DNA from: Rugalucina vietnamica
Lineage: Eukaryota > Mollusca > Bivalvia > Lucinida > Lucinidae
Assembly (NCBI GenBank): GCA_964017185.1
Contig: OZ024870.1
Location: 64,830,812 to 64,894,811 of the forward strand
Reading direction: 5' to 3'
DNA length: 64,000 bases
Both the position numbers and the translations under genes were made by a program. Under the pieces are notes generated by a model. The model ran no database searches and was not told the DNA's origin. It saw nothing but the letters and a program-made list of their open reading frames with translations. Below, in pieces: positions 1 to 56,480 of the stretch; positions within the stretch are counted from its first letter, which is position 1, and every line of letters starts with the position of its first letter.

Positions 1-2527
1 TGGAATTAAAAGCCTCGATAACATCAGCTTGATTATCATGGTTAAGAGAATCCATGAAATCTCTTTCGTAGCAGTATAAAAATAAATCAGCTACGAGAGG
101 TGCGCAATTTGTACCCATCGGAATTCCAACAATTTGTCTGTATAACTTGGTCCCAAATCTAATATAAATATTATCAAGGAGATAGGATAAGGCGTCGCAT
201 ACATTCTGACATGACCAAAGTGTATACCGACTTTGGTCAGAGGAAGTGAAAAAAGCCTTTCTGTCATTACATGCCAAATAAAGTGAACCATAGTTTTTTA
301 ATGCCCTTTTGAAGGTCCACTCTATCAAATCCAGAAGTTTTTCTTTAATTAGATTATGTGGTAATGTTGTATACAGAGTAGAAAAATCATATGTGGACAA
401 GCTTGTCGCACGGAACCCTCTACACTTCAATTTACTGAGCACCTCACCAGAATTTTTAATTGACCAAAACCAATTTTTATTTGAAGTTTCATACACTGTC
501 TCACAGTATCTTATAACATGAGATTTGATAGCAGTAAGACAGGAAGTTAATAATTTAGAAAGTTCAGTGGTAGTACAAGAGCTAGAATTTGCAATAAATC
601 TAGCTTTGTATGGTCTTTTGTGAAGCTTAGGTAACCAATACATCGTAGGAAGTTTGTCTTGGCCTTCATTGACACAAACAGAAAACTTAACAGGTAAATC
701 GTTTAAGTGGGCATTAACTACAGACACCTCATCAGTATCTGTCTCCAGATAAGCCCTGGTACCATCAAGCTCCTGTTTTAAGGTGTTAACGTAGTGAAGC
801 CTACAAACGACAACAACATTGTTTGCGGCTTTATCTGCCGGAACCAATACATACTTTCTATGAAATTCTTGGATACCCTGCTTCAAATGCCTAAATGACG
901 ATTTGGGTTTAGGAGGTAAAAGATTAGTATTTTGTGAATAAAACTTAATACGTTTATCCACGATAGTGAAGATACTTCTTTTCCATTCTTTAAGAGCATT
1001 ATCCTCAACACCCTCTCGTTTACACCATCGATTACCGAAATCATTTAATGCAGATGAAATCTCCTCTCTACATTTGTCGAAATTAATGTAGGAAGGGAAT
1101 CTATATTTCGGACCTTTAGAAACGATTTTGCGAATTCTAGAATCCGAAATTATTTTTAAATTTCCAGTAACAATATGTCCAGCGGGTTGATAAACATATT
1201 TTGAATCTTTACAATCTCAAGACTTAGGAGTATTAGCATGGATATCAAGATCAGAAACAAGTTTATTGAAATTAAAAATTGTATTTCTGATTGGTTTGTT
1301 ATATTTGTAACAAATAATAGGAGGTTCTGAATTTTGGAAGTAGGTAGGTATAGACTGTATCACTGATTTATCCTGGAATATGCTTGGTAAATCAATAAAG
1401 TCAATTCCTTTATTGATGAAAGGAATTTTAATAAAACTTCTAATGTGATTGGATTCGGAATCGATAAATGGACGAAGAGCATGCTGAGTATAACATCTTG
1501 TTAACAGTGCAGCGTCATACATTTGATGATTTCTATCGTAAAATCTATTAGCCTCTGTGTCCAAGGAACGTAATGCAGCAATAGGTAGAGAACTAAGATA
1601 CGACAGCATTGGATGTCGACCGTGAATCCTTAGTTTAACAGCTAAATCATTAAGAGAAATGTTCAATTTCAATGCAGCACACCGTTTACGTTTGTCATTA
1701 CCCCTTTTCCGTATACCATGAGATCTAGATTTACGTTTACGAGAGTCCGAAAGTGTAAGTACATCAAAATCGGGCATTTTGGAAATATTGCCTTCATGGT
1801 AAATGTTGTCGTTAAATCCCAGTGGAAAGGGTGTTTGCAGTAATTTTATCCATTTAAGTTCAGTTTCAAATCGTTTAATGTTTTTGAATCTAACTGAAGA
1901 ATTTTCATCATATGAGATTTTCTCCACTGGTTGAACTTTAACATCATTGGGAGAATGACCAGTGCGCTTAAAATGCTGGTACAGAAAGGTATCATTATTT
2001 TTGGGTTTTCTGATTCTACGATAGTGCTCACCAAATCGTTTTTGCAAAGTTCGACAAGTTTGTCCAACATATTGCATCCTACAATTGTTTGTATTTCAAG
2101 TAAGAACATATACAAGATCCATTGATTTTCAGTCTAAATCAGAATCATTAACCACTGAAAATGTCCTACCATTCACAGATGAAGTGATAGTAGTCTTAGA
2201 ACATAAATGATTGCAACAGTTGCACTTCTTGGCATTGCACTTAGAAATACTAGGGTACATTCCAGGTCTCTTGAACGGATTAATATATTTACGTAAAATT
2301 GGTGATTTGAGTGGAGATAACCTAATCTGAAGATTATTACGAAACATATTAGAATTAGAAGCTCCGTGTAGATTAACAGTAGATGCCGAAAATAAATTAA
2401 GAGGTGTCACCCTTACAGTAGGTAATAAATTTTGAAAATTGTTAGTTGAATGAGGAATCCGTACAGTAGACGCGGCATGCAACCTAAGGGGAGTTAATGT
2501 AATTCCTAATCTTTTTGTGATAGTCAT
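1..2527 (-). CDS. Naiad-type Penelope-like retroelement ORF (GIY-YIG + RT) with three in-frame UGA codons; 3' end off window
   Basis: This is a retrotransposon polyprotein read right to left and cut by the window edge. From ATG at 2527 there is a basic N-terminal region, a Cys cluster (KCNAKKCNCC, about residue 118), a GIY-YIG endonuclease (QYVGQT, then RFGEH, and ETELKWIKLL with the likely catalytic Glu), a linker, and a reverse transcriptase with ADKAANNVVVV, DFSTLYTTLPH and GIPMGTNCAPLVADL. The catalytic LDD motif should lie beyond base 1. The endonuclease precedes the RT, the permuted order known for Naiad elements; classical Penelope elements carry it at the C-terminus. The frame has three TGA codons, at 2129-2131, 2096-2098 and 1217-1219 (residues 133, 144, 437), and no other stop. 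Each lies where homologues have a conserved Cys; the last turns the linker CxC into UxC. Selenocysteine recoding is inferred from this pattern. Loss of function by three nonsense mutations is the alternative. The frame extends to a GTG at 2599, but ATG at 2527 is the first Met. Confidence 0.85.
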
Positions 2528-2904
2528 AGTTGGGAGTATTGTGTTGATACTGCCAAAAGGAGCGCGACACTCATACCGGTTATGGAATAAATAATGCACT
2601 TAATCGTAATGCAAAATCTTTCGAATGAAAGAAAAAGGTATAACCGAAACCCACACCTCAGGTCCATGTCTAATACAAGTCCATGGATAGAAACGTAAGA
2701 ATCGCTTATACAACGAGATACGAGTGACGGTCAACTAATGACCTTCAATACGGTATCGAAGAGTTGTGGTAGTTAGAGATAGGAAAATACAAACTGATTG
2801 CAAGCAATCCCTGAGGATTGGAAAAATAAGAGCATTAAATGGATGTACGGGGAGACTTTTTAGGGCCGCCACACGGCACAACCACAAGAACTCTGATATA
2901 AAAA
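2528..2904 (-). other. Naiad 5' leader
   Basis: This non-coding stretch lies between the presumed start of the open Naiad ORF and the end of the upstream truncated copy. Bases 2840-2890 (ggatgtacgg, then ggccgccac) are shared with another dispersed repeat of the window near 21360, 32390 and 38560. Part of it may therefore be older flanking DNA rather than element leader. A frame free of stops runs back to 2599 but lacks an ATG there. Confidence 0.5.
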
Positions 2905-3850
2905 GGTACAAGTAGGCAAAGATCAGGAAAAGGCGCAATCAGAAAAAGATTCCCACTCCAAAAACCGAGGTGGGAAAAAACCAAACCAACAATCAGGTAC
3001 CCATACCATGAAACAATCGTAAGCCGAATGGGCAGCTATTTTCCCAATAGGTGGCCACTCAGTTACCTTAACTTAACTAAAAATATGAAAACATACATAA
3101 GGCGCCAACAGCACAAAAATTTTTTTAAACACCAAGACATAAAACAAAAAGAACCACCACAGAAGTATCGACTTGGAACGATCAGTAACACAAAGTTACT
3201 GGCGGGCTTAAACCGGTTTTACATGGCCATAACCTCACCCTCAGCTTCTGCAGTGGTTCATAACATTTAGTTAGTTATTCGGTCCTCGTGGTGAATCTCT
3301 AACTAGTCAATGAATCATCAAGAACAAACAAATAAATCATGATAAACATCCTGATGAATCAAAAACCAGGACTCACAGACTGAGTAAGCTGCCCGACGAT
3401 GGAGATCCCTGGGCGCCGAATAACCTACTAACTCCGGAGCAAAAGAAAAACACCAGTTGGACCCCGGTGGGCCAAGCAACAGACAAGAAGCTCCGGCCCC
3501 AACCAACTAAAATGAATAGCTTTATGTCGGGGCCATCATAGAGTCTGACGCCCGACCCACCGGCGTGCAATTAAAGAAGGCAGCATAGTTATCAACCATG
3601 ATTGGGTTAAAAACTAAGCATGCAGACTGTCGCATAACATTCAAGTTATAATCTATACGTTTGTAACGTGTTATGATTTTTCTGAACTGAAAAGAAAAAT
3701 CATTAATTCCTTTAAGTTTCTTAAATTTGTAAACCAAGTCACCATAAAATTCAGGTTCCGAAAGGCCCTCACTTAAAAGCGTCTTTAACCCAACATTATA
3801 TTTGGAAATCAATTCATAGTGTCTACGATAAAATTTAGAAAATGTAAGCC
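2905..3850 (-). mobile_element. 5'-truncated Naiad copy (C-terminus plus 3' UTR), head-to-tail with the full copy
   Basis: The segment starts at about 3850 inside the RT C-terminus, passes the stop near 3525 and continues as about 600 bases of 3' UTR to 2905. There it meets the leader of the open Naiad copy in the same orientation. Partial copy followed by longer copy is the pseudo-LTR layout typical of Penelope-like elements. The UTR recurs at 29185-32150, 43850-44440 and 56080-56480. Conserved blocks include gatcgttccaag, an A+T block and the end block read as tttttggagtggg. If the element uses selenocysteine, its SECIS should be in this UTR. Confidence 0.8.
3522..3848 (-). pseudogene. Naiad reverse transcriptase C-terminus (truncated copy)
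   Basis: About 105 codons survive of the conserved C-terminal region of Penelope-like RTs. Visible motifs are SEPEFYGDLVYKF, RYKRIDYNLNVMRQ and FNCTPVGRASDSM. The reading frame is open from the truncation point near 3848 to a TAA stop at about 3525. The same C-terminus, also ending in TAA, occurs on the plus strand at 55840-56103. No N-terminal part is attached, so this copy cannot code for a working enzyme. Confidence 0.85.
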
Positions 3851-4440
3851 AATATATAATTAGGGTTTGTATGTGTAGATTATTTGACTATACCACTTCT
3901 CCATGACAGGCTCACATTTTCCAAGCGGTTAACTAGTTACCAGGTGGTCAGTCAGTAAAAAGCTTTGCCTAAATGCACAAGCACCTAATCTCTTTCTCAT
4001 ACTTCAATGGATGGGGCCAAAGTAATTTTGGAGTTAAAATGCAAAGCAGCACAAATAATATAATTTATGTTTTATTCTACTGTAACATGCAATTGACTTG
4101 TATACTGAACAAGTGCTACATACGTTTTAACAGGTGAGTGGTCAGAAAAATGACTAATTCATTTTTGTAGAATGTGAATCCGAACTTGACAAATGTAACA
4201 AAAGAAACCGGTTGTCCTAGGATCCAACTTTATGTGAATTCATGAACTCATTTTTGGTGAATTCTGTTGAACAAGGCCTTTTTGTGACCGCCTACATTTT
4301 AAAATGCATGTAGCACAGCTTCTTCTACTTTGACGGGAACGAACGAGGATGCAGGTTAATGCTAAAGAATACAGGTAGTCCAAGAGCTCACCTGTCAGTG
4401 AGAGTCAGGAAGTACAGTCACTTTTCAAAACTAAAGTAGA
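3851..4440. other. Gene-free stretch with one dispersed repeat fragment
   Basis: No coding region is supported. Bases 3905-4015 (ggtggtcagt, agctttgcct, gcacaag) resemble a repeat seen better at 44510-44640 and, inverted, at 53940-54060. The rest shows no structure I recognise. Confidence 0.5.
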
Positions 4441-4590
4441 AGGGTTTTTTGCATTATATGGGCATGGTGGCCATCTTGGTCATGCAACCTTGATTTTATA
4501 TACACATTGATTGTCTCTTTCTATAAATGCTTCATATAAATTTGGCTTTGTAAATTGTTTGGTCAAGAAGTTTCAGAATAAACACATTTA
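4441..4590 (+). repeat. Fragment of the 'gccatcttgg' tandem-monomer repeat family
   Basis: The words atgggcatggtggcc and ggctttgt followed by tcaagaagtttcag match the second half of the ~460-bp monomer that makes up 9665-10754 and 11531-13079. This is an old, isolated piece. Confidence 0.7.
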
Positions 4591-5410
4591 CATGTTCGTT
4601 TCATAAGTTTAATATGAATGATCTGAACACTTTAGATTTCTATCAATTTATAAATAGATGATAACACATTAAAGATGAAAAGCGAAATAGTATAACTTCT
4701 GTGACACAAATATCAACTTAAACATTGATTTCTCACACTACATGGAAGTTTGAACACATTACAATGACAGAACATCCAGTAGACTACACCTTATGATAAT
4801 ATTTGGTCTACCCTATTTACAGTCAAGGTTATCGAAGCTTGAACTCTTGCATCTTACAAGACTGCCTTACATTGTTTGGACTGCCTTTTCGCCATTTTGT
4901 GTGCAAGTACCTTTTCGAGCAGCTTCCTTGGGATCAAATATTTACATGCAACTGTTCGACCAGTGTTATAGTAAACACAGCCGATTTTATGTATCATTAT
5001 GTATCAAAGGCTGACTGATTGTATAATATGGTGTACCACGGCTAGTAGGGTGCAATATTTCAAGCTTCAATCTGCTTGAATATATACAGGGTATACCAAA
5101 TTAGGTGTAGTGTACTGGTTGATTTGTCAATTTAACAATATTATCTGTTAAAGATTCAACGTTTGTTGAAGTGTGTGAAACCAATGTTAATCCCAGAAGT
5201 TATGATATTTTGCTTGTCATTTTAGTGTATTACTATTTATAAATAAATTGAGCAAAATCAAAAATGTTATCAGCGCATATTTTTATCATGTATTTAACAA
5301 AATAACGAAATCCGTTCAAGTCCTCAAACACTACAGGTAAATCAAATTTGGCTGAGTTTCAAGAACGTGTAGTGCTATGCCATTACTTATGAAACAAATG
5401 GCATAGTGCT
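4591..5410. other. Gene-free A+T-rich stretch
   Basis: Short frames near 4793-5018 on the plus strand overlap each other in two frames, lack family resemblance and carry no splice signals that make an exon. I see nothing else here. Confidence 0.5.
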
Positions 5411-7801: not shown

Positions 7802-10754
7802 AAACCAGAGGACCAATGGTCCTGTATTTACTCACCTGAGATCTGGGATATATACCAATAAATTTGTTTGACTATTGACTATTATGGTCATATACATCTA
7901 TATAGCCCCAGGGCAGGGACAGATGAACCCATGGGGTCAATTTTATTTTCAGAATCATAAAAATTCTGTCCAATTGCCCATTTCTTTTAAAGTTTTTCCC
8001 TTGAAATGACAATTTAACAATTTTCCACATTCAAGTTTCGACTGCATTGGCAACCTTTATTGACCTTGCCATAAAATAGGTCAAGGTCATCACAGGGACA
8101 TGATTTATATATACATTGTAGTACTTGAGTCACCGATGCTTCATGCTAAGTTTTGTTATTATCTGTCTATGGGACTCAAGAGTTTTTTGAATGTTTTTTT
8201 TAAACTTTTACCATATATGGGCATGCCGGCCATCTTGGTCGTGTGACCTAGGCTAGATTATTTACATGTATATATGTTACAGCCAATCTGTGAAATCAGC
8301 CTTTTCATGAAATGGCTAAAATTTTTAGCCTTTTCGTGAAATGACTAATTCACTCAGCCATTTCATGAAAAGGCTAAATATTTCAGCCTTTTCATGAAAT
8401 GACTAAAATCTCCATGCCATTGTTACACAGATTGACTGGTTCAGTTTCAGCCAATCTATGTAATAACGCCTTGAGTTTTATTTATGCCTTTGATATCATC
8501 ACAGGAATAATTCATTTGATTAAACCACAAAAATGAATATGATAGTACATAAACTTCCATTTTCACTTCTAAAAGAATATTATTGTAGGCATAAATAATA
8601 ATACATGTAATAATAATAATGATAATGATAATAATTAAGTTAAAGATAAGTATAATCGCTATGATTATGATTATAAGTTAAACACAATAAGAAAACAAAG
8701 AAGTTTAAACCATTACGTTGATCATAGTCAAATAAAAGCTAATTAAAGCAAAGTTTGCAAGCTAATTAAAATGTGATAAATCCCACTGGACTACCCTTTG
8801 ATTTTAAGTGGGAGACAATGTTGCTATTTTTCCTATACCTATAGTTGACAGAGGTAGAGGTGACCCATGAAAACATTCTTGGAGTAATCCTGGTTTTTGA
8901 TGAATAAAATATGTACACTATTGCTGTCAAGGAACCACTTTGATCTATGTCCATAAAAGCTCCTAACTAATCGTGATGTTAACACACGGTTTGTACAGTG
9001 ACACTTCGCCAAGCTGTGAAAGCAACAACTTCAGGCGGTCAAGGTTTGTTTCGATGTAATTGTGGAAAGGGTAAAAAACAATGTCAAACAACAGATGTAA
9101 GTGTTTTGTGCAATAGCAGATGCCATAACAGTCTCCCATGTAAGGATAAGTAGACAATGTATGTGAATTAAACTGTGTGGTATTGAAAATGTACACTATT
9201 GATACGTGTTTCTAATGGCATGTTGCTGAAATTTTACTATTTTATACGCGAATCCTTAGTATCTCATATTGTGTGATTCAATAACTTAGAACTTTCCCTA
9301 GACAATGGGAAAAATGAAACGAAATTATTGTACCCGTAAGAAATTGAAAATCTCAATATATTAACTGGATTACTCATGACACATAAAATTATCATTTGAT
9401 GTGCTTACATTTTGTGCTTTACTATGTTTTAACCAATGTTCAGAGCTTTAATAAAAATAAACTTCACTCTTTGTATTGTTTTAAAGGTTCCCTTGTTAGT
9501 TTAGCCATTTCATGAAATGACTAAAGCAAATTTTTAGTCATTTCATGAAAAGGCTGAAATATTTAGCCGTTTCATGAAATGGCTGAGTGAATTAGTCATT
9601 TCACGAAAAGGCTAAAAGTTTTAGCCATTTCATGAAAAGGCTGATTTCACAGATTGGCTGTAACATATACACATTGATTCCCCCTTCCTATAGATGCTTC
9701 ATATAATATTTGGCTTTGATTTGCAAAGCAATTTCAGAGGACAAGATTTTTAAATATTATGGTAAAATACATGTAAATTGCCCCAGAGTGGGGGCAGATG
9801 ACACCCTGGGGTCATTTTTTTAAGAATCATTGATGTTCAGTCCAGGACTCCTACAGTCAATTTCCTGCAAGATTTTCTCTTCAATTTACATTTTAACAGT
9901 TTTTCCCATTTAATACATCTATATAGGGGACCTATGTTGACCTTGTCATAAAATAGGTCAAGGTCATTACAGGGTCATGATTTATAAATACATTGTAGTA
10001 CTCGAGTCACCGATGTTTCAAGCTAAGTTCCATTGAAATTGATTCATGGGTTCCAGAGAAGAAGATTTTTGAAGAGTCTTTACCATATATGGGCATTGTG
10101 GCCATCTTGGTTATATGTGACCTGGATTATTTAAATATACATTGGTTCCCTCTTCCTATAGATGCTTCATATAAAATTTTGCTTTGATTGGTCAAGCGGT
10201 TTCAGAGAAGATTTTTGAATACTATGGTAATATACAGGGATATTGCCCCGGGATGGGGGCAGATGAGTCTCTGGGGTCATTTTTTTTCAGAATCATTGAT
10301 AGTCAGTCCTACAGCCCCATTTCCCCGCAAGGTTTTCTCTTTAAAAGACATTTAACAGTTTTCCCCATTCAAATGTACTGGCAACCCATGTTGACCTTGT
10401 CATGAAATAGGTCAAAGTCATCACAGGGTCATGATTTATATGAAACATTGTAGTACTTGAGTCATCAATGCTTCATGCCAAGTTTCACTGAAATTAGTCC
10501 ACCAGTTCCTGAGAAGAAGATTTTGAAGTTTTTCACTGTATATGGGCATGGTGGCCATCTTGGTCATGTGACCTGGATTATCAATATATAAATTGGTTCC
10601 CCCTTCCTGTAGATGCTTCATATAAAATTTGGCTTTGATTGGCCAAGTGGTTTCAGAGAACAAGTTCTTTGAAAATGGTGACCGACAGACGGACAACCGG
10701 TGCCTACCCATCCTATATGCGCACCTATTAGCCTTTGGCTCAGCTGAGCTAATA
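7802..10754 (+). mobile_element. Tandem-monomer repeat element with palindromic ends, split by a nested transposon
   Basis: The element opens with ccagaggaccaatggtcctg and actcacctgag and closes with ggctcagctgagctaata, so its ends resemble inverted AGCTCACC/GGTGAGCT boxes. Between lie ~460-bp units, each with gccccagggnnggggg, tgaccttgnc, atgcttcatg and catggcggccatcttgg words, then a short ggacgg-type run. Bases 8276-9664 are a later insertion. The host repeat reads through: gattatttacatgtatat on the left continues with atacacattgattccc on the right, as in intact monomers. No protein is encoded. Confidence 0.75.
8276..9664. mobile_element. 1.39-kb DNA transposon with long TIRs built of palindromic words, nested in the tandem-monomer element
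   Basis: The ends gttacagccaatctgtgaaa and its inverse at 9645-9664 begin inverted arms of about 130 bp that are nearly identical. Each arm is a series of short words of the type agccatttcatgaaaaggct, themselves palindromic around catg. The flanks share atat on both sides, but the TIR could be extended by a few bases, so the target duplication is uncertain. The centre (8430-9500) has only short frames without known motifs. It is probably non-autonomous. The superfamily is not assigned. Confidence 0.85.
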
Positions 10755-11530
10755 AAGAAAAAGAAGTATAAAATACTAAATACCAGTAGATACTATTTGG
10801 CACCGACATCTTGATCTGAGACTGTATTTTGTCCACCCCTCATGTAACTTGTAAAATCACTTCTCATGTAACTTGTAAAATCATACAATATGTGGGTAGG
10901 GGCTGGAGCAGCAGGTCAAATACTTCTGGAATTATAAATTGAATAACTACAATGTCAACATGTCACATATGTACGAACATACATTCTTCACTCCTGTTTA
11001 AAAGTGAATACATTGCTAATCAGGATGTTTTTACATACTGTATTTTGTAGTTCTAATTAGCACACAGTGACATGCTTAAGTACAAACCCTGCTTGTTTCC
11101 TAAAAGCAAATTAGTACATTGTATTTGACACATATTTCGCACATAAATATTGCATTAGCAGCATTCAATCCTAAACTTAAATGTTAAAACCCTATATTCT
11201 TTACAATTGAACACTGAGCCCCCAGGGGGGCTTTGCTCCCTGCTCCCTGAAAGAAAAATGACCTTTCTCCCCAGCTCTCTAAAATGTTTTTCCTCAGCCC
11301 CCTGCTCCCTAAAACCCCAAAAAGTCCCTGAAAACAAGAATTGGCAATATGCAAGGCTTATTAGATACCCCCCTCAAAGTAAAAGTCAGTAAAAAAAAAC
11401 CCTGATTTTCAGCTGTTACTTATGCAAACAAGTATCAAAAATGTGCCCATGCAACTGTACGAGGAGTTAAGGGCAATAGCTCTAAAAGAACTGGACCCTT
11501 TACAAGCATCCCCATGTTGAAAACATGCAC
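10755..11530. other. Gene-free stretch
   Basis: Bases 11205-11345 hold a C-rich run with ccctgctccct repeated, read as short frames on both strands. These look like low-complexity sequence, not an exon. Nothing else is recognised. Confidence 0.45.
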
Positions 11531-13079
11531 AACCAGAGGACCAATGGTCCTGTAAACGCTCACCTGAGATCAGCTGCATATACCAATAAACATGTTTGAA
11601 TATTATGGTATTTAACTCCAGTGCAGGGGCAGATAAGCCCTTGGGCCATTTTCTTATTTCAGAATCTTCAATATTCTGTCCATTTGCCAATTTCCTGTTG
11701 GCTTTTTCCTTCAAATGACATTTTAACAGTTTTCCCAATTCAGATGCACAGGCAACCCATGTTGACCTTGCCATAAACTTGGTCAAGGTCATCACAGGGT
11801 CATGATTTATATATACATTGGAGTACTTTAGCCATCGATGCTTCACGCCAAGTTTCCTTGAAATCAGTCTATTGGTTTCAGAGAAGATGATTTTTGATGG
11901 GTTTTTACCATATATGGGCATGGCGGCCATCTTGGTCATGTGACCTAGATTATTTATATACACATTGATTCCCCCATTCTATAGATGCTTCACTTAAAAT
12001 TTGGCTTTGTTTGGCCAAGCGGTTTCAGAGGAGAAGACGTTTGAATATTATGGAAATATACATGTATATTGCCCCGGGGTGGGGGCACATGAGCCCCTGG
12101 GGTCCAATTTTTTTCAGAATCATTAATATCCAGTCCTACTGCCCATTTCCTGCAAGACTTTCACTTTAAATGACATTTGAAAAGTTTTCCCCATTCAAAT
12201 GCATTGGTGACCTATGTTGACCTTCCCGTAAAATAGGTCAAGGTCATCACAGGGTCATGATTTATATACACATTGTAGTGCTTGAGCCATCAATGCTTCG
12301 TGCCAAGTTTCGTTGAAATCGGTCAACCGGTTCTGGAGAAGAAGATTTTTGAACGGTTTTTACCATATATGGGCATGGCGGCCATCTTGGTCATGTGACC
12401 TGGATTTTTTATATACATATTTGTTACCCCTTCCTATTGATGCTTCACATAAAATTTCGCTTTGATTGGCCAAGCGGTTTCAGAGGAGAAGATGTTTGAA
12501 TATTATGGAGATATACATGTATATTGCCCCGGGGTGGGGGCGGATGAGCCCCTGGTGCCCAATTTTTTTCAGAATCATTAATATTCAGTCCTACTGCTCA
12601 TTTTCTGCAAGATTTTTCCTTTAAATGACAATTTAACAATTTTTCCCATTCAAATGCATTCGCGACCTATGTTGACCTTGCCGTAAAATAGGTCAAGGTC
12701 ATCATAGGGTCATGATTTATACACACATTGTAGTGCTTGAGCCATTAATGCTTCATGCCAAGTTTGGTTGAAATCGGTCCAGTGGTTCCGGAGAAGAAGA
12801 TTTTTGAAGGGTTTTTACCATATATGGGCATGGCGGCCATCTTGGTCATGTGACCTGGATTATTTATATACACATTGGTTCCCCCTTCCCATAGATGCTT
12901 CATGTAAAATTTGGCTTTGATTGGCCAAGCGGTTTCAGAGGAGAAGATCTTTGAAAATGGTGGACGACGGACGGACGACGGACGACGGACGGACGACGGA
13001 CGACGGACGGACGGACGGACGCCGGAGCATGGGTATACTATAAGCTCACCTTGTGAGCCTGACGGCTCAGGTGAGCTAA
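11531..13079 (+). mobile_element. Second tandem-monomer repeat element, about three units
   Basis: It opens with accagaggaccaatggtcc and gctcacctgag and ends with gacggctcaggtgagctaa, a better inverted-end pair than in the 7802 copy. The monomer landmark ggggtgggggc recurs at about 12075 and 12525, giving a period near 450-460 bp. The last unit runs into a ggacgacgg microsatellite. Long minus frames inside are by-products of the repeat. Confidence 0.8.
12958..13024 (+). repeat. (ggacgacgg)n-type microsatellite
   Basis: The run alternates ggacgacgg and ggacgg words. It lies at the 3' end of the tandem-monomer element, at the same place as shorter runs at 10680-10700 and 38880-38920. It is therefore part of that element's structure. 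Confidence 0.85.
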
Positions 13080-23675: not shown

Positions 23676-24498
23676 CTATGATGCTTGTGCTTTCACGGCT
23701 GAACTTAACGGTTTCGAAACATGATACAAAGTTTTGTTGTCGATGCGAAGTGTTTCGATTTGTTTACTTCCTTCTTCAGATCGAAACACAAATGCATAGA
23801 CACTATAGAGAGTTTCACATGGTATCACGGTTGTTTGTGACACCCCTACGCCTTTCTTGTGAATAAAGTGATTGCTTACACAATCCCCTTGGAATGGCTT
23901 CAGATATGAACCTATATCGTTAGAAACAGGCATGATTAAATTTTCAAATATTCCTTGTTGTATCGGCAAATGGACGGACCATGGATGGAATTCAGTTGCA
24001 GCTTGGAATGTGACGTCATAAACATGTGTTTCGTTATAGTCGAAGAAAAATATATCCAAAAACGGCCAATTCCATGCGTGAATGGGATGACCGATTGCTT
24101 TTGAATAAAATTTCCACTGATGGTTAACATTTGTTAACAAAGAGAACCCGGGTACAGAATACAATGCTGTAATAAGAAGTTGCCTCTGCGAGGCGTTGAC
24201 AAGAACATCAAAATCATCGTCCCACGGAATGAATCCATGATGTCTGTACGCACCAAGAGCTGTGCCCCCTTGTAGTAAATAAGAAATACCATATCTTTCA
24301 CAGGCGTCCTTGAATGTCTTAATCAATGTCATATACCATTCATATTCAGATGCATTTAAGACTGGAGAGAATGGTTTATATTTTTCACTAAACGCCGAGG
24401 AATTGTCCCAACTATATCTATCGTTTCTAGATATATTGAGTGGAAAATCGGAGTACTCCAATGTAGATTTCACTGACGGAGATGGGCCAAGGTTCTCT
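23676..24498 (-). CDS. LicD/fukutin-like domain protein, exon 2 (terminal)
   Basis: This exon encodes residues 42-315 of a 315-residue protein: the lumenal domain. The LicD family signature is clear: LLQGGTALGAYRHHG at residues 116-130, then FIPWDDDFDV at 131-140, and WPFLDIFFFD at 186-195. Proteins of this family are nucleotidyltransferase-like; they include bacterial phosphocholine transferases and animal fukutins, which transfer ribitol phosphate in the Golgi. The exact substrate here cannot be told. The aspartates of the DDDFD motif expected to hold metal are present. The 5' edge is set by an acceptor (tttcgtttcag) at 24499; the frame joins exon 1 in phase 2. The stop is TAG at 23676-23678. 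No internal defects are seen. Confidence 0.9.
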
Positions 24499-24943
24499 CT
24501 GAAACGAAATTATACACGAAATAGATTATTTGTTGATAACAACACAAACAATATATTCTAAACGAAACGTCCACTGAAATAAAAAAAAAATAAATAAATA
24601 AAATGATAACTTTATATGTTCTATCGTTTTGGAACGGTCATAATTTGACTACAAACTTTACATGTTGTCTCAACAGAAAAGATGTATTCTTAAACGTACA
24701 TAATTCCTTTTGTAAAGATACGAGCCGTATATACAATGTATGATTCATGTATCATATTCATCTGTTAAAGTCGAAGCAGCCACTTTAATCAGCCACTATA
24801 ATCGGCGGTTGTTTGTAGTTCACAATCCCGGGTTCACAATATCATCTTTTAAAATCAAGATCTCTTTTCGTATTCAATACGTCTAAACAATCGTCGTATG
24901 GTCGTATAGCGTTATATTCCACGAATAAAAATCATCTTACTAC
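24499..24943 (-). other. Intron of the LicD-like gene
   Basis: The 445-bp intron has donor gtagta at 24943 and acceptor cag at 24499-24501. It contains a poly-A/taaa run but no inserted element that I recognise. Confidence 0.8.
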
Positions 24944-28194: not shown

Positions 28195-29184
28195 ATTGTG
28201 CGGTGTGTCTACCAGACAAAACTGCATAAGAATGAGATCGCGAACAAATCTCAACAATGACATTTAAACATTTAACTTATACATACAGGGGCCGTGTACA
28301 TATATATTTGCAAATAAACTATTAAAAAAAAACTGTCATATACACATGTAATGAATTTAAATATATATATAATGACCGACCAGTTCCACATGTTAACTGA
28401 AGATGTGCAACTGAAGACGTGAAATCGGTCGTCAACACAATATATATTATTCGGCAAATAGGTTAGTGTATGGGCGGCGCCCCATGAATACTTGATTAGA
28501 CCTAAAGGTAAAAGCTCCAACTCACAGGTTTTCCGTTAGAAAATATGAATGAAATGCAAATTTGCCTAATTCACTGGACTGGACAGCGTACTGGTAGCTG
28601 ATTGCTAACGGAAAATATGTGACAGCGGTCTACACTGACTGATATCCCTACTTGAACAGAATGGACTAGCCGACCACGCCCAGATATGAATATTAAAGTT
28701 GCCGCCTATACAGTTACCTATTTGCCAAATTATACTCGAAATCATTCCATATTTGTATTTTATTCACATTTTTGAGTTAATTTAGTTGTTTTGGGAAACT
28801 TTTGCCTATTTGTTTCATTTGCGTACATGTATGTCGAACGATGCCCATTAGGGCTTGATACTTAAGAGGGATTTCTAGGTGTAAGTTTGAAACTTTATAG
28901 ACAGTATGGAATTACTTCTGTAATAATATTACTCTTTAAGATACTAACACACACCTTGGAGTAAATTGCAAGAACAAGAAAATCTAAGAATTTCTTTATT
29001 CCCTACTGATATTTTCGAAAGGTGCTTTGGTTCTGTCCATAGACCGTATCGTCCTCAGATTTCATCGACAAATCAACTTTTGTAATTTATGGCACAGTAG
29101 CATAGTATTCATTTAGCCTTATCGAACAGTTACTTCCCCTGCATGTCTTGCCTATGACTCGCCGGTGGACAGTAAAAGTAAAAG
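28195..29184. other. Gene-free stretch
   Basis: No exon, RNA gene or element ends are recognised. A run of ta at 28360-28372 is simple sequence. Confidence 0.4.
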
Positions 29185-32150
29185 TAAGCAATGATCAGGA
29201 AATGGCCTAATCAGAAAGAAATTTCCACTCCAAAAACCGAGGCGAGGAAAACTTAGATCAGCTGGCTAACTGTCACTCCGCTCCACTTCGGTACCTCGTT
29301 CCACTTTCCTGACAGCTTAGCATTGGTCCCATTTAAACCAATGTCGAATTAATTACGGAATTTGTAAGATACTTATATCTTTGTTAGTTTTGTGTTAATC
29401 GTATTTTTTTGTTATATATTTGTACCAGTAGCAAAATAATTTCCAGTAAAAACATACAATTGCCAAAAAGTTTAATATAACGTAGAACAACAAAAGAAAT
29501 TCGACTTTGATTCGCTCTTTCTACAGTAGTATCCCCTGATCTATTTATAGTCATTTTTAAAATTTCCTACAGACAAAAATGAACTATTTTATGATTCGGC
29601 GTACTTTAACACCTAGAATACGTATAATTTATGTCATATATGCCAGACAAGATGTAACATAAATTATAATTACAGTTTTTTCAATTCTTTGCTGTTTTGC
29701 TAAATCTTTATTTTCGACCAAGGGCTCAATATTGCCTGTTTCCGTCGGTAAGGAGAGGTTTAACGGAATACCGATGGAAGTATTCCGTCTAGGGAAAACT
29801 AACTTAACAATCAGGCGTCCACAATAAGAAAACACATTGTAAACCGAATGGGCAGCCAATTTTCCCAAAAGGTACAAGTAGGCAAAGTAGCCACTTAACT
29901 AAAAATATGAAAACATGCATAAGGTGCTAGCTGCACAAAATTCAACACCATACATAAAACAATAAAAACCATCACAAAAGTATCGCCTTGGAACGATCTG
30001 TAATGTAAAATTACTGGCTGGCCATAATCTCAGCCTCAGCTTCTGCAGTGGCTCACAACATTTAGTTAATGGTTCGGTCCTCGTGCTGAATCTTTAACTA
30101 GTCAATCGATCACCAAGGATAAACAAATAAAGTATGATAACTAGTAAGCGTCGATGACCAGTAAGCGGGTGATTCTATGACCAGTTAGAGATTCACCATG
30201 AGGACGGAACAACTGACTAAATGTTCAAAACCACTGCGGAAACTAAGGGTGGGGTTAGGCGCCTGTAAAACTAGTTAAGCCCTCGCCCCCGCCCAGTAAT
30301 TTGATCTTACTGATCGTTCCAATGTGATACTTCGGTAGTGGTTCTTACTGTTTATGTTTTTGCGTTGAACTTTTGTGCTGTTTGCAACTAAGGTATGTTT
30401 TCGCCTGTTCGTTAAGTTTTGATATCGAGCTTATTGGAAATGTAGCTGCTCAGTTGGCTTACGGTATGTTTTCTTAGTATAAGTTCTTGTTTTTCCCACC
30501 TCGGTGTTTGGAGTAGGAATTCTTTCTGATTGTGCAATTACCTGATCATTTCCCACTTTTACCTTCCCCTATACGTTGATGGTTGATAAGAAGACAGTAG
30601 CATTGACTTAAAGCTATCCGTCGTTGTTAGTTGCTGTTCGCTTTCTCGACTGTTGCTTGGGCAAGCCTGGTTTTCTTTTGCTTCAGATTTTCAATGGGGA
30701 CATTTGGGCATCAATGTATCGCCAGTAGTCATACAGCTCGTATTTGTGGTGATATAGGTTTTAGGTCGGACCTCAGACTATGATAGCACCGACTTAAAGC
30801 TATTCATTTTATTTGGTTGGGGTCGGAGCTTCTTGTCTGTCGCTTGGCCCACCGCGGTTCAACTGGTGTTTTTCTTTTGCTATGGATATCAGTTAGTTAC
30901 TTGGCGCCCAGGGATCTCCATCGTCGGGCAGCACACTGAATCTGTACGTCCTCGTTTTTGATTCATCATGTTGGTTATCATGATTTATTTGTTTGCCCTT
31001 TATGATTCTTTGGCTAGTTATAGATTCACCGAACAACTATCTAAATGTTGTGAATCACTGCCGGAGTTGAGGTTGAGGTTAGGCGCCTGTGAAACCGGTT
31101 TAAGCTACCCAGTAAGTTTATATAACCGATCGTTCCAAGGCGATACTTCTGTTTAGGTTCTTTTTGTTTAATGTTTTGGAGTCGACTTTTTGTGCTGTTT
31201 GCACCTTGAGTATGTTTTCATATTTTAGTTAAGTTCGGGTAACTGAGTGGCCGCCTATTGGGAAATAGCTGCTTACTCGGCTTACGATATGATTTCTCTG
31301 TACAAGTACCTTATTTCACACCTCGGTTTTTTGGAGTGGAAATTTCTTTCTTATTGCTCAATTTCCTATTCATTGCCCACTTGTACCTTTTGGTATACCA
31401 TCGTGCTCTAGTGATTTATTGGTCGTGGTGATTCATTGACCAGTTACATGTAGCAATTCTTTATGGGAATCGAACATTAAATCTGAGGAAGACGTTGTGG
31501 TACATTTAAAGCTGGTTAAGCTAAACCAAGCAAAATAACTGTCAGTCCCATGGTAGTCTATATGCTGTAATTTCACTGTAGAAGCTGGTAGTTAGGTCGG
31601 TTAAAAGCGAAACCGGTTTAAGACCGCCCCAGTAATTTTATTTTACCTTCATTAACCGTTCTAAGGCCAGTGTTTGTGTCATTTGCGCCTTTCGTCTGTT
31701 TGTTTGAGTTGTGCCATAGCGTCCCAGTCATGCATGTGCGTATTGATATATTATGTTAAGTTCCGGTAACTTAGAGGTCGCCTTTAGAAAAATAGCAGCT
31801 CACTTGGCTTAGAAAATGTTCTCTTTGTATCAGTACATGTACCTGATTTCCAACCTCGGTTTTTGGAGTGAGAATTTCTTTCTGATTGCGTCATTTCTTG
31901 ATAATTGCTTACTCTTTTCCTTTTTATGTTGTTTTTCACTTTCGAAGCTGAGGATCAGGCAAGTATCCCGTAAAACCGGTTTAAGCACCTCCCCCCTCCC
32001 CCTCCCCACACACAAAGTAAATTTACATTACGGCCATTGGCCGATCTAAGAAGGTAGAAGTGGGCAACGATCAAGAAAAGGCGCAATCAGAATGAAACTC
32101 CCACTCCAAAAAACCGAGGTGGGAAAAAACTAAATTCACAATTAGGTACT
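29185..32150. mobile_element. Pile-up of Naiad 3'-end copies in both orientations
   Basis: At least five pieces of the Naiad 3' UTR lie together: minus at 29185-29255 and 29815-30140, plus at 30160-30590, plus at 30750-31395 (starting in the worn last codons of the ORF), plus at about 31420-31960, and minus again at 32050-32150. Each is recognised by gttactgatcgttccaag, actgagtggcc, the ccacctcggtttttggagtg block and cttttcctgat. Plus and minus copies meet near 30150. This is the tandem-plus-inverted layout known for Penelope-like insertions. None codes for protein. Confidence 0.75.
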
Positions 32151-33230: not shown

Positions 33231-33920
33231 TTATTTCTTGAATAGTGCTGATGTGTGTTGGTGAGTTCTTTGATGGCTGACTAGGCCAATTCTGGCTCTA
33301 AACTGTCGGTTGCAAGTAGAGCAAGTCAGTGTCATAGAGTCTGCTGGTGGCACATTTGTTTTGGCTTTGCGCTCTCTTCGCTTTCTTTCAGTTTCACAGA
33401 TTCTCTTCTTTTCATAGAGAGCTGCTCCTTTGTTGATGAGACCTCGCCACTTTGATCGCTCCTGTGCAGTCTTTTCCCAGGACCCCATTGGTATTTCGAA
33501 ATCCTTCAGAGAGGCTTTGAGGGTGTCTTTGTAGCGTTTCTTCTGGCCACCTTGAGAGCGCTTTCCCTCCTGTAGTTCTCCATAGAAAACTTTCTTTGGA
33601 AGTCGCGCATCAGGCATTCTTATAACATGGCCAGTCCATCTTAGCTGTGCTAGCTTTAAGACTGTATGCATGCTTTGCATCCCTGCTTTCCTCAGGACCT
33701 CTGTGTCTGGAATCTTGTCCTGCCACTTGATTTTTAACAACTTTCTCAAACAGCTTAAGTGGAAATGGTTAAGTCTCTTTGCATGGCGTTGGTATACTGT
33801 CCAGGTCTCACATGCATACAAGAGGGTTGGCAGTACCACAGCCTTGTAGACTTTCAGCTTGGTGTCAAGCTTGATTCCATTTCGCTCCCAGACATTTGCA
33901 CGGAGTCTTCCGAATGCCAC
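33231..33920 (-). pseudogene. LINE C-terminal region with C2H2 zinc finger
   Basis: This is the end of the LINE polyprotein, in a different frame from the RT core. It shows VYKAVVLPTLLYACETWT, RWTGHVIRM and KKRYKDTLKASL, motifs of the RT thumb and carboxy region in this group. A single C2H2 finger follows (CSTCNRQF, then GLVSHQRTH), and the stop is at 33231. The finger probably helps nucleic-acid binding. Clade assignment (RTE, CR1, jockey or other) is not made here. Confidence 0.85.
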
Positions 33921-34877
33921 ACTAGCTTTTGCAATTCTGCAGTGATCTCATCATCAATATGCACTGCTCTGGAGAGAGTGCTTCCCAGGTAGGTGAACTT
34001 GTCAACAACTTTCAGTTTTTGCCCATTCACGGTGATGGTTGGTTCATTATATGGTTTTCCGGGGGCTGGTTGGTGTACAACCTCTGTCTTTTTTGTGCTG
34101 ATTGTGAGATCATAGTTATCACATGACTGTGAGACTTGATCCATGGCTCTTTGCATTTTTGCCTCTGTGTTAGCATTCTTATCCATATCATCTGCATAGA
34201 GGAGCTCATCTAGCACATCAGTCTGGACCTTAGTTTTGGCTTGCAACCTTCTGAGGTTGAATATGTTGCCATCAAAACGGTACCTGATTGGAAAACCAGT
34301 GTTACTGTCCTGAAAAGCATCCATAAGCATGGCAGAAAACATCATGCTGAACAGTGTTGGTGCCAGAACACAGCCTTGTTTGACCCCATTTGTTACTTCA
34401 AATGGTTCAGAGAACTCTCCATCATTCTGCACACGTGCCTGCATGCCATCATGAAACTGCCGCACCATAGCTATGAATCTGGGTGGACAGCCAAACTTGG
34501 CCATGATTTTCCAGAGTCCATCACGACTAACAGTGTCAAAAGCTTTGGTGAGGTCAACAAACGTCATGTATAGATCTACATTCTGTTCTTGGCATTTCTC
34601 CTGAAGCTGTCTTGCTGTGAGATCATGTCTATTGTCCCTCTATCTTTTCTGAATCCACATTGACTTTCAGGGATAAGTCCCGTCTGATCAAGATGAGCAT
34701 TCAGACGATTCAACAGAATTTTTGCAAGTATCTTCCCAGCAATTGATAGGAGGGAGATGCCTCTGTGATTGTCACAGACTTGAGGATTTCCTTTCCGCTT
34801 GTATAGGTGGATTTAGGATGCATCCTTAAATTCTTGTGGGATAGCCTCCTTCCTCCACATACAGTGAAACAACTCTG
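33854..34877 (-). pseudogene. LINE reverse transcriptase, broken
   Basis: After the first frameshift the RT continues in another frame through ISLLSIAGKILAKILLNRL and SQCGFRKDRGTIDMI. It is interrupted by a TAA near 34811 and a further shift near 34635. The frame from 34567 holds FVDLTKAFDTVSRDGLW (motif A), VKQGCVLAPTLFS (motif B) and LLYADDM (motif C, catalytic Asp pair intact), then KFTYLGSTLS. A third shift near 33940 separates it from the last part. With one stop and three shifts this copy is dead, although catalytic residues remain. Confidence 0.85.
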
Positions 34878-40193: not shown

Positions 40194-40393
40194 TTAACCC
40201 TTCGATACCGTCTGCACATTGCAATGTCCCGTTGCATCCCTATGCCTCCGTAGTTCTATCCTTCTCTGGAACGACAGACCACACCGTGAGCAGGTGAATG
40301 GCTGGTAGTCCGCGTGTTTGCGGCTGTGGGTTATCAGGTTCGAGCTCTGGCTGAAGGATTTATGACAGACCTTGCAAATGTGGGGCTTTTCAC
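40194..40393 (-). CDS. GFI1: GFI1/Senseless-like zinc-finger protein, last exon (two C2H2 fingers)
   Basis: The exon encodes the linker GEKPH, one finger ([21 protein letters not shown]) and a second ([23 protein letters not shown]), then a short tail and TAA at 40194-40196. [13 protein letters not shown] followed by FQR..LRRHR is the signature of the last two fingers of vertebrate GFI1/GFI1B and fly Senseless. These are nuclear DNA-binding repressors that act in sensory-organ, neural and blood-cell fate. The acceptor (gtttgtttcag) at 40394 gives a phase-1 junction completing Gly of TGEK with the upstream exon. The final finger has three residues between its histidines in RHRDATGH, slightly longer than usual. 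Confidence 0.92.
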
Positions 40394-40429
40394 CTGAAAC
40401 AAACATTAAGAAAACTTGACCATGCAATA

Positions 40430-40985: not shown

Positions 40986-41000
40986 TATGGGAAACCTTTA

Positions 41001-51080: not shown

Positions 51081-52164
51081 AAATAGTTTTCAAACAGTAT
51101 AGCCACAGCAAAGGTAGCGGTAGCATTCTACAAGAGACGAATGTAGAAAGTCTGTATATAAAGTTTTTGGCTGGCAAGACATATGGCAACAGCCAAGATT
51201 TTAAACCCAGGTAATAAACTTCGAAATTCCGAATGAACTATCGTGTTGCTGCAAATGGTTATTAGGTTGATAATTCTGTCGACAGAATCAAACAAATCTG
51301 ATTCTTGAAAGGTATTGTTCCTCAAATAATCTAACTACAGTTTTACGATGTCACGTCAAATATTAACTTTTAATGGCGAAAACCAAAACGTAACAAAATT
51401 GCTAATATCATGTCTGTTAAACACTGATTTCCTAATGGAAAAGGTCGAATTTAAAAGGTTTTAGCGGTTTCTCAGATTTGTGCTCGAGACGTGCAATCGT
51501 CCATTAATGTAATTTGATTGTGCTGTTCATGTTAATGTTGGTCGGCAGGGATTGACACGATCTAGCTCTGGTATGAGATTCGACTGGAATATATCCCAGA
51601 GGTATCCAGAATTGGAATAATTGGGGCGATTAGGCACTTTTCTAAAAGCCAGAACCGCAGCGGACGGATAAGGGACATATGTCCATAAATCACATCGATT
51701 AAGACAAATTGAATCATGTCTGTTTGTAATATCAAATATTGTTCGGTAAGACGCATTTTTGTGTGTACTACTTGTTTGTATGATATGATGCAGTCGTTAG
51801 CCCGCCAATTAAAATATTAATTGTTCGACTATGATATTTACCCGTTCTCCATTGGATCATCCGAATGGATAAAGAATGTAGAATTTTATGATATACATGT
51901 ATTGGTTAAAGAAACGTAGATTCATTATTATCTAACCAATTCGTTTACATTGATTGATTATAGTATGTTTTGTACACTTTGAGTGTTTTATTGTAGCTTT
52001 TCGATTTGTGTTTCATCAAAATTAAATGAAAGTCTCAGCTATTCTAGGGTACCGGTAGCTCTTGTAGCTAGTCGCATTAGCGTCGATAAAATAAGCAATA
52101 TCTTTACGAAGTTGATGATACCAATAATAAACTGTACATTTGCAGTTTCTCTACATGTACATTT
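51081..52164. other. Gene-free stretch
   Basis: Small frames on the minus strand carry no known motif. Nothing else is recognised. Confidence 0.4.
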
Positions 52165-52960
52165 TCAGTAAATTGAAGTTCAGAGAGTTCCGTGCGACGA
52201 GCTTGTCCACATACGACTTTTCTACTCTGTGTACCACATAACTACATAATATCATTAAAGAAAAGCTTCTGGATTTGATAATTAAAAGTGGACCATCAAA
52301 AGGGCATTAAAAACTATGGATCACTTTATTTGTCCCATAATGAATGACAGAAATGTTTTTTTTCCTTTTGACCAAAGTCGATATATACTTTGGTCATGTC
52401 ACAATGTATACCACGCCTAATGATATTTATATTAGATTTGGAACCAAGTTGTACAGACAAATTGTTGAAATTCCGATGGGTACGAATTGGGCCCCTCTCG
52501 TAGATTATTAATTTCTATACTGTTACGAAAGAGATTTCACGAATTCTCTTAATCATGAAAATCAATCTGATGTTATCGAGGCTTTTATTTCGACTTCTAT
52601 GTACCTCGATGATCTTTTGAATTTTTCCACCTGAGCAAAAGTTGAATAAAGCCAATACCACAGTTACCGAAACCCCTATTTAGATTTACATGTACATCTT
52701 ACTATTCCAAAAATGTTTTTTTAATTCATGATAAGCACGATGACTTTGATTTTAATATACTTATTTTTCGTTTTTGGATGTATGGTGTATACGTTTCGCA
52801 ACTTATTATGTTTGCCAGTGTCTGCAATCATGCTACGGACTTCAACCCGCGAAATAAATGCTTAACGGCCAAACTTCTCCATTAGGACTATCGATATAAT
52901 TATTTTCACAAAATATCTAAATTTTATCGTTAACACTATAAACTGATTTCCAAATTTAAT
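52165..52960 (+). pseudogene. Naiad RT relic, plus strand
   Basis: The DNA follows the RT part of the open element at 1-800. It has gttccgtgcgacgagcttgt, the words for IPMGTNWAPLV and, further on than the open copy reaches, MYLDDLLNF, which is motif C with both catalytic Asp codons. FNPRNKCLTAKL follows. Frames are broken by many stops and indels (for example near 52228, 52508 and 52888). The copy is truncated at both ends and cannot make protein. Confidence 0.85.
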
Positions 52961-53063
52961 GCACTATTCAACTAGCCAGCTTTATTCACTTGTTTGGGAC
53001 CCGAACTGTCAAATACAGGTAGGGTAAGTCTCAAACTATACATTAAAAATGAAGAATTAATTA

Positions 53064-53929: not shown

Positions 53930-54080
53930 AATTTCTGGGGCCTCGCCTATTTTGGCCTCAAGAAATAGATGGTTTGATTGTGCCTCCAGGCAAAGCTTCT
54001 ACGCTACAGATTGACCATCTGGTTACTGGTTTTCCGATCATGTCTGAGCTTGCCCAGAAAAATGGCTCGTGCCACGAGCT
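53930..54080 (+). repeat. Dispersed repeat fragment
   Basis: aagaaatagatggtttgatt, gtgcctccaggcaaagctt and accatctggttactggtt are the complement of 44510-44640. It sits against the start of the Naiad relic. Confidence 0.65.
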
Positions 54081-54084
54081 TGCC

Positions 54085-54868
54085 CACATACATTTTTTTT
54101 CTACTCTGTGTACCACATTGTCACTTTATCTGATTAAAGAAAATCTTCTCGATTTGATAGAGTGAACCTTCGAAAATGCATTAAAAACTATGGTTCACTT
54201 TATTTTGCCTGTAATGACAAAAAAGCTGTTTCCACTTTTTCTGACCAAAGTCTATATGCCTTATCCTATCTCCTGGATAATATGTATATTAGATTCGAAA
54301 CCAAGTTATACAGACAAATTGTTGGAATTCCGATGGGTACAAAATGCGCCCCTTTCGTAGCTGATTTATTTTTTTATACGGCTACGAAAGTTATTTTATT
54401 GATTTACCATGGCAATCAAGCTGATGTTATCGAGGCTTAGGTACCTCGATGTCCTTTTGAACATTAACAATCCTGAGGGCATGGTCAATCAAATTTATCC
54501 ACCTGAACTACAGCTGAATAAAGCCAACAACACAGACACCGAAGCCTCGTTTTTGGATTTACATCTTTCATTTGTTTATTCTAAAACTTATGATAAACGT
54601 GATGACTTTGATTTTGATATAGTAAATTTTCCGGGTTTTTTTTATGATGACGTTCCTCGCCGTGCTTCTTATGGTGTAGATGTATACATTTCACAATTTA
54701 TCAAGTTTGCTAGAGTCTGCAATCATGCAGCTGACTTCAACGCGCGAAATAAATGTTTAACAGCCAAACTTTTCCGGCAGGGCTATCGATATAATACACT
54801 TTGAAAAACATTTTCTAAATTATATCGCAGACACGATAAGTTGATTTCCATATTTAATGTTGGGCTAA
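54085..54868 (+). pseudogene. Naiad RT relic, first part (interrupted by a MITE)
   Basis: The relic reads motif A remains (FSTLCTTLSLYLIKENLLDLIE), then a TGA where the open copy has Trp (TGG), then LKNYGSLYFACNDKKA, IVGIPMGTKCAPFVADLF and, in another frame, RYLDVLLNI, where the second catalytic Asp of LDD has become Val. It continues with SFLDLHLSF and CNHAADFNARNKCLTAKL. The stop at a Trp codon and the lost Asp show ordinary decay. At 54868 the sequence breaks off at FNVGL and resumes at 55836. Confidence 0.88.
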
Positions 54869-55835
54869 TGTAGCGTTTACACTATGTTCCCGGCGGCCAC
54901 GGCAGCCACGTTTCAGACAACCATGATCAAAACGGGATAAACGTGAGGCAACACAAGCGAATGGGATAGGCAAACGTAGCAGGCCGTGATAAACGTGCAC
55001 AACGTGGCAATTTCTTCTGCCACGGCAGTCACGGCGGAAATGAGAAACGTAGTAGGCCGTGACAATACGTAACAGTACGTAGCGAAACGTGAAGGCGGTC
55101 CGTAGTGCAACGGGAAGCTAGTGAAAACCCGACAAGCTACGGCTCTTCCGCGCTACGTTTGATCACGGTCGTCTCACGTCTCGTCCCGTTTTCTACGGAA
55201 TATTCAACACGTTTTGTTGCGTTAAGTTACGGTGCGTTAGGGTCTTTGACGGTGTTAACCCCGTTCTACTACGTATGTCACGTTAAAGATATAAAATGGC
55301 ATATCATGGGGACACTTTTCTTGATATTGGAGCATATTGAATATTTAACAACAGAGATCATTCTCTGTACTATGCCGATGAAGAAGAAATAAAATCCCAA
55401 ACTATCTTAATAAACTCTGCAGTCGGTTGTTGAGGAGCGTGGTTGTTATTATTTCAAAGGGCTTATTCTAATATAAAAGGCACAAAAACGCTTTAAATTG
55501 CATGGTGTCGTCCGTAGCTGACCTTGACAGAACGAAAAAACGTGTTACGAATTGGTCAAGACGCAAAGGACCGCATCAGAACGTAACAAGCCGTAATAAA
55601 ACCTGCTTATAATCGTGATAGATCGCAGATAACCGTAACGTACCTTAGCGCCACCGTGACGCACCGGCTTATCACTACCACGGCTTGTTACGGATATCGT
55701 AATACAGCGTAAGAATCTTAACAAGACGTAATAGATCTTGAAAACAGAGAAATATATGACCAAAATTCCACGGCACGCCACGTTTCGAGCAAACGGGGCC
55801 GCCGGGGCCGTCGAGAACATAGTGCAAACGCAGTA
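54869..55835. mobile_element. 967-bp MITE with TAA duplication inside the Naiad relic
   Basis: The ends tgtagcgtttacactatgtt and the complement of gaacatagtgcaaacgcagta are inverted. The trinucleotide taa stands at 54866-54868 and 55836-55838, and removing the insert restores the Naiad reading frame across FNVGL and KSLLREGLS. A 3-bp TWA-type duplication is characteristic of PIF/Harbinger elements. The interior is rich in words such as cgtaacaagccgt and cgtgataaacgt in both orientations. No transposase is seen. Confidence 0.85.
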
Positions 55836-56480
55836 TAAAGTCGCTTTTACGTGAGGGCCTTTCGTAACCAGAATTTTATGGTGACTTGGTTTACAAATTA
55901 AAGAAACTTATAGGAAGGAATGATCTTTCTTTTCAGTTCAGAAAAAAATCATAAAACGTTACAAACGTATAGGTTATAACTTGAATGTTATGCGACAATC
56001 TGCATGCTTAGTTTTTAACCCAATCACGGTTGTTAACTACGCTTTCTTCTTTAATTGCACGCCGGTGGGTCGGGCCTTAGACTCTTTAATGGTCAGGACA
56101 TAAAGCTATTCATTTTAGTTCGTTGGGGCCGGAGCTTCTTGTCTGTTGCTTGGCCCACCGGGATTCAACTGGTATTTTTCTTTTGCTACGGTTTTCAGTA
56201 TGTTATTCGGCGCCTAGGGACGCTTACTGAATCTGTTGAGTCTTCGTTTTTGATTCATATGTGTGGTTATCATGATTTATATGTTTGTCCTTGATGATAC
56301 ATTATCTAGTTAACTAAAGTTGTGAACCACTGCAGAAGATGAGGGTGAGGTTAGGCGCCTATTTTCTAAGTATATATACCTAATTGTCATTTTAGTTTTT
56401 CGCACCTCGGTTTTTGGAGTGGGATTTTCTTTCTGACTGCGCCTTTTCCTGATCATTGCCTACTTGTACCTTTTCAAGTC
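55836..56480 (+). pseudogene. Naiad RT relic, second part, with 3' UTR
   Basis: After the MITE the frame continues with LLREGLS, a stop, PEFYGDLVYKLKKL, RYKRIGYNLNVMRQSACLVF and FNCTPVGRALDSLMV to a TAA at about 56101. The 3' UTR follows with a deletion and ends with the ggtttttggagtggg and cttttcctgatcattgc blocks near 56480. This is the second readable end of the family, and it too uses TAA. Confidence 0.88.

Follow-up and report, generated by a model that had tools for sequence, protein, structure and literature searches.

A Naiad-like Penelope-type retroelement of the bivalve Rugalucina vietnamica that probably encodes a protein with three selenocysteines

Craig, Yushenova, Rodriguez and Arkhipova (2021, Mol Biol Evol) are said to have described Naiads of spiders and clams that evolved selenoproteins with several selenocysteines, and Mix et al. 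(2007) reportedly described a SECIS element lying in coding sequence, in the GPX4 gene of fowlpox virus. Selenoprotein Naiads are thus already known, and the element described here is likened to them. In the excerpt of PMC10941475, on a TE library, PLE/Naiad is used as a class name. According to a review, the fowlpox virus SECIS is in the coding sequence and its cellular counterparts are all in the 3' UTR (excerpt of PMC8310308); the fowlpox GPX4 SECIS within the reading frame was reported to be functional, even 5' of the UGA (excerpts of PMC8310308 and PMC6769590). Within the collection of papers that was searched, none reported a Penelope-like or Naiad element combined with selenocysteine or a selenoprotein. 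No such element appeared by title among the matches listed for SECIS and retrotransposon selenoproteins, or by title in the literature on bivalve selenoproteins with SECIS. The excerpts of PMC10294476, PMC3849965 and PMC5055719 hold nothing on Sec sites, and that of PMC1564403 makes no statement on cysteines of Penelope endonucleases.

The DNA analyzed here, called the window, is a stretch of 64,000 nucleotides (64 kb) from Rugalucina vietnamica. It begins within a retroelement frame on the minus strand, open frame B, which is the subject of this work. Several other features were recognized along the window. The minus strand carries a Gfi-1-like zinc finger gene in two exons (40194-43494; PDB 2kmk, Gfi-1, is among the matches and is not the top one), a frame for a LicD-domain protein (23676-24509; Pfam E 2.6e-18), LINE-like frames (33231-36503; the endonuclease at 34878-36503 by Pfam, the RT part by eye only) and a Gag-like retrotransposon frame (46948-47529; Pfam Retrotrans_gag E 2.4e-5). 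There are also two tandem arrays at 9673-12955, whose repeat units measure 451 bp and 455 bp, and a strong inverted repeat at 56751-56833, probably a palindromic repeat, which several microRNA models matched below their gathering scores.

Open frame B and its protein

The following features were assigned to open frame B.

2..2599, minus strand: open frame B, retroelement, 866 codons from stop to stop, with an ATG at 2527; it crosses the window edge
1793..2239, minus strand: Cys-rich stretch and, on the N-terminal side of the RT, a GIY-YIG-like endonuclease segment; assignment by motif only, boundaries approximate
2129..2131, minus strand: TGA 1, codon 133, context DLD-U-KSMD, within the endonuclease segment
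2096..2098, minus strand: TGA 2, codon 144, context VYVLT-U-NTNNC, followed by QYVGQT
1217..1219, minus strand: TGA 3, codon 437, in the linker KS-U-DC (U-x-C), followed by YVYQPAGHIVTG
2..900, minus strand: first part of the RT, with DKLPTMYWLPKLHK, YDFSTLYTTLPH and VGIPMGTNCAPLVADLFL; start approximate; the window stops just short of YLDD

Translation from the ATG at 2527 (2527..2, minus strand) gave 842 residues before the window start was reached, with in-frame TGA at codons 133, 144 and 437. A previous reading of the sequence alone (the sequence-only reading) had claimed a minus-strand frame with only three stops, all of them TGA; the translation matched it exactly in the positions of the stops and reproduced the contexts quoted for them (DLD-U-KSMDLVYVLT-U-NTNNC..QYVGQT and KS-U-DC..YVYQPAGHIVTG). 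None of the 842 codons is TAA or TAG, an outcome with a chance of about 3e-14 given the base composition of the frame itself. No other frame of the window runs as long as B without TAA or TAG: B has 866 codons and the runner-up, which covers a LINE endonuclease frame, has 624. No second copy of the N-terminal half of B was found in the window (tblastn, E up to 1e-3). Since this half is present there in one copy only, each TGA site rests on a single sequence.

Inspected by eye, the motifs of B follow the order VYVLTU..QYVGQT..R..EH, then U-D-C (codons 437-439), then the RT motifs; among the latter, IPMGTNCAPL is found in B and YLDD in another copy of the family (D1, at about 52602; see below). 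The GIY-YIG-like N-terminal segment, the CxC-type linker and the PLE-type RT motifs are what we take to be Naiad features. The Sec residues would stand for what we take to be metal-site cysteines, of the CCHH and CxC motifs known from such proteins. Profile searches with the whole protein returned 0 Pfam families at E up to 10, no match in PHROGs and only a chance-level match in NCBIfam (E 0.12, 10.9 bits versus a cut-off of 238), and phmmer against PDB gave no match at E up to 10. Single-sequence structure models were unusable (pLDDT 31 for the endonuclease segment and 35 for the RT segment). No hammerhead ribozyme was detected in the window at the Rfam gathering score, nor in positions 1-5000 at E up to 5; a twister-P1 match (20.8 bits versus 67.2) was taken as chance. 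Tandem and inverted, 5'-truncated copies with a common 3' end are present: one lies head-to-tail with B, and both orientations occur at 29174-32149. Judged by motifs, domain order and tandem layout, and with no match above chance level in the profile libraries, the element appears to fit the Naiad kind.

Relatives were also sought in viral and prokaryote contigs using the whole protein, the endonuclease piece, RT or C-terminal pieces and patterns, and two endonuclease DNA patterns. Within these contigs, for which a few short exact patterns were used and which do not include animal genomes, no relative reaching the endonuclease or the linker was found, and tblastn against phages and plasmids gave no match. 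The contig scans yielded two loci. The first, L001, is a decayed RT fragment (tblastn E 1e-22, over 51 and 37 residues; no endonuclease match by tblastn) that we take to be a PLE RT; its contig is filed under a Bathymodiolus symbiont MAG and presumably represents host DNA in a bacterial bin. The second, L002, was rejected as a chance match to the pattern; it shares its strand, though not its frame, with a long ORF of tail-fibre-like appearance.

Copy A and the SECIS element of the family

The 3' end of B falls beyond the window. Further copies of the family, and the SECIS element found in one of them, are the following.

3522..3848, minus strand: copy A, a 5'-truncated tandem copy with the RT C-terminus, ending in PVGRASDSMMAPT and TAA; start approximate
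2902..3521, minus strand: 3' UTR of copy A, ending at about 2902 in GCCTACTTGTACCTTT; this 3' end recurs in other pieces
3480..3547, minus strand: SECIS (RF00031, SECIS_1) of copy A, found with Rfam
3462..3565, minus strand: extended hairpin of 104 nt, the SECIS atop a 15-bp basal stem, with a coding 5' arm (PVGRASDSMMAPT) and a 3' arm in the UTR
30764..31391, plus strand: copy C, 3' end only, with a SECIS relic of 15.2 bits
43855..44432, plus strand: copy B2, 3' UTR 96% identical; the match starts at 3480, with the final base of the 3' arm of the SECIS
52161..52961, plus strand: copy D1, 5'-truncated, a decayed RT fragment with YLDD
54068..56474, plus strand: copy D2, 5'-truncated and decayed, with the RT core, the family 3' end and a SECIS relic; it holds an insert at about 54880-55835

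Copy A lies directly upstream of B in the same orientation, with its TAA stop at 3524-3522. Head-to-tail copies (pLTRs) have been described for Penelope-like elements (excerpt of PMC3846280). Because A and B share no overlapping sequence, what links them is their adjacency and copy D2. In this single element, its insert aside, the RT core matches that of B, and the C-terminus and 3' UTR match those of A. D2 thus joins the RT core and the 3' end, and in this way the SECIS is tied to the family of B. The end GCCTACTTGTACCTTT recurs exactly or nearly at the ends of six of the eight other pieces inspected, and the sequences diverge beyond it. A cluster of six family 3'-end BLAST pieces of at least 78 bases, three per orientation, occupies 29174-32149. 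The insert inside D2 (54880-55835) has inverted ends (GCGTTTRCACTATGTTC) and is probably a DNA transposon.

A SECIS search of the 3' UTR had been proposed as a check on the sequence-only reading, and the element was indeed found, at the 3' end of copy A and above the Rfam threshold. SECIS_1 scored 37.4 bits versus a gathering threshold of 35 (E 6.9e-4 for 64 kb and all Rfam families), matched over the full length of the model (1-64 of 64) and was the sole gathering-level Rfam match in the 64-kb window. Its fold comprises a 10-bp helix, an AUGA/GGAG core, an AUAAA bulge and a small upper helix, with z-scores of -3.4, -3.9 and -5.9 for 68, 91 and 146 nt, respectively. The AUGA of the core (3539-3536) falls within codons and the GGAG on the 3' side, and the TAA stop of A contributes two unpaired A's of the SECIS.

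The SECIS position is spanned by three copies: A is intact, C is a relic below threshold (absent from another Rfam scan with E up to 5) and D2 gave no SECIS match with Rfam. A fourth copy at this position (30605-30660) was barely alignable and was left out of the count. Conservation of the hairpin was scored as identity in 40-base windows. For the 3' arm it was 0.93-0.97 when A was compared with D2 and 0.90-0.95 when A was compared with C, so that this arm is better kept than most of the UTR past it (0.28-0.88 for A and D2, 0.45-0.90 for A and C). The coding 5' arm was less kept than the 3' arm in both D2 and C (0.82-0.85), and the D2 coding sequence ahead of the hairpin showed 0.88-0.97. By these identities the 3' arm in D2 is kept about as well as coding sequence, not above it. 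As for copy B2, its start inside the extended hairpin is what a halt of reverse transcription at the SECIS might leave, in this one case.

Selenocysteine or decay at the three TGA codons

Taken together, these results make it very probable that B is the 5' part of a Penelope-like retroelement of the Naiad kind and that it encodes a selenoprotein; the portion inside the window would hold three selenocysteines. Reading UGA as selenocysteine is well supported because the family 3' end carries a SECIS and B is open but for its TGAs. The selenoprotein reading first made from the letters alone is thus strengthened by a SECIS above a curated threshold that tandem copy A has at the 3' end typical of the family. 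Counting against it, the intact SECIS belongs to this truncated neighbouring copy and not to B, the SECIS position is decayed in C and D2, and no profile library recognizes the protein. We infer that the off-window 3' end of B carries the same SECIS, that selenocysteine is inserted at the UGAs of B and that the three sites were ancestrally cysteines.

An alternative that we consider unlikely is that not all three TGAs stand for selenocysteine, one or more of them being a plain nonsense mutation in B. The codons are seen in one copy only within the window, and decay can yield TGA in this family: in D2 a TGG has become TGA, and a second TGA of D2 stands in YRYNTL-U-KTF. The decayed copies served as a control for this. 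Where they align to A or B, D1 and D2 show 15 frameshifting gaps and six stops (four TAA, one TAG and one TGA), of which the TAG, bordering the D2 insert, is doubtful. This count leaves out the stretches of D1 and D2 that lack a counterpart in A or B, one of which holds the D2 TGA in YRYNTL-U-KTF. None of the six decay stops coincides with a cysteine codon in A or B, which argues, like the complete lack of TAA and TAG in B, against nonsense mutations among the three sites. The TGA in YRYNTL-U-KTF was also considered as an extra selenocysteine in the RT C-terminus and was taken as decay; D1 reads CAC there, and PLEs have Arg at this position.

Still less probable is that B is an inactivated copy, with its TGAs produced by decay and the SECIS a chance match or a fossil. 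That B is a single copy, and that two of the three copies spanning the SECIS position have decayed there, would fit such a history. Set against it, the SECIS at the family 3' end lies beyond a curated threshold, and the other copies decay through frameshifts and mostly TAA. Moreover, three random nonsense hits on an intact frame would all be TGA with a probability of about 0.03, and all three would be TGAs on cysteine codons with a probability of about 1.4e-4 to 3.5e-4, assuming that the ancestral codons were Cys. Selection was also looked for in the differences at codon positions 1, 2 and 3, which were 10/139, 13/140 and 19/137 between B and D1; 9/123, 9/122 and 23/122 between B and D2; 7/88, 10/89 and 7/89, and 4/24, 5/24 and 3/24, in two comparisons between A and D2; and 3/16, 2/15 and 0/15 between A and D1. 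An excess at third positions, a sign of selection, appeared in two of the five comparisons (B with D1 and with D2) and in none of the three with A, dead copies being a poor yardstick.

Removal of the TGAs by splicing, or a role for them as programmed stop codons or as sites of plain readthrough balancing endonuclease against RT output, is hardly credible: TGA 1 and TGA 2 do lie close together and PLEs can keep introns (the subject, reportedly, of a 2003 paper), but the five best frame-keeping GT-AG pairs around these two codons would also delete QYVGQT, their donors are weak by a crude count, and plain readthrough needs no SECIS.

Under the selenoprotein reading, decoding of the three UGAs would fall to the SECIS-binding protein, EFsec and tRNA-Sec of the host, directed by the SECIS at the 3' end of the mRNA. 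In the endonuclease and linker, the Sec residues would most likely replace cysteines with a metal-binding or structural role. With Sec in these two parts, output of the full endonuclease-RT protein would depend on the host selenium machinery, and a mobile element with such a dependence would be a rare case. A single window thus provides both the UGAs and the SECIS of the family, in support of a retrotransposon protein with several selenocysteines.

A SECIS across the stop codon and comparison with known systems

The position of the SECIS in copy A allows a further proposal, which we advance tentatively and regard as somewhat doubtful: the family may have merged its SECIS with the end of the protein, the PVGRASDSMMAPT codons and the stop forming the 5' arm and core, so that the same bases would be selected both as peptide and as recoding signal. 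Terminating ribosomes would then have to open the stop-straddling SECIS, the very element that lets them pass the UGAs. If true, a mobile element would here have a SECIS that limits itself and shares its code with a protein, with output tied to the host selenium supply. It poses a testable question, namely whether a SECIS whose 5' arm is translated can still allow Sec insertion.

Among described systems, Naiads appear to resemble B in their N-terminal endonuclease, short CxC-type linker, RT and several in-frame UGAs, and they likewise share tandem and inverted copies and the lack of a canonical hammerhead. The hairpin matches Rfam SECIS_1 (RF00031) over its full length and differs here in a long basal stem with a coding 5' arm. 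Canonical Penelope/Poseidon elements, such as those of Adineta vaga, share the pLTR-like tandem and inverted copies (excerpt of PMC3846280) and the PLE-type RT motifs, for which the decayed fragment in L001 may be compared, whereas their endonuclease is C-terminal to the RT (excerpt of PMC11167929). Finally, as described in PMC8310308 and PMC6769590, the GPX4 gene of fowlpox virus is alike in that its SECIS overlaps translated sequence; its SECIS, however, lies within the reading frame, while the one described here straddles the stop codon and belongs to the gene of a retroelement.
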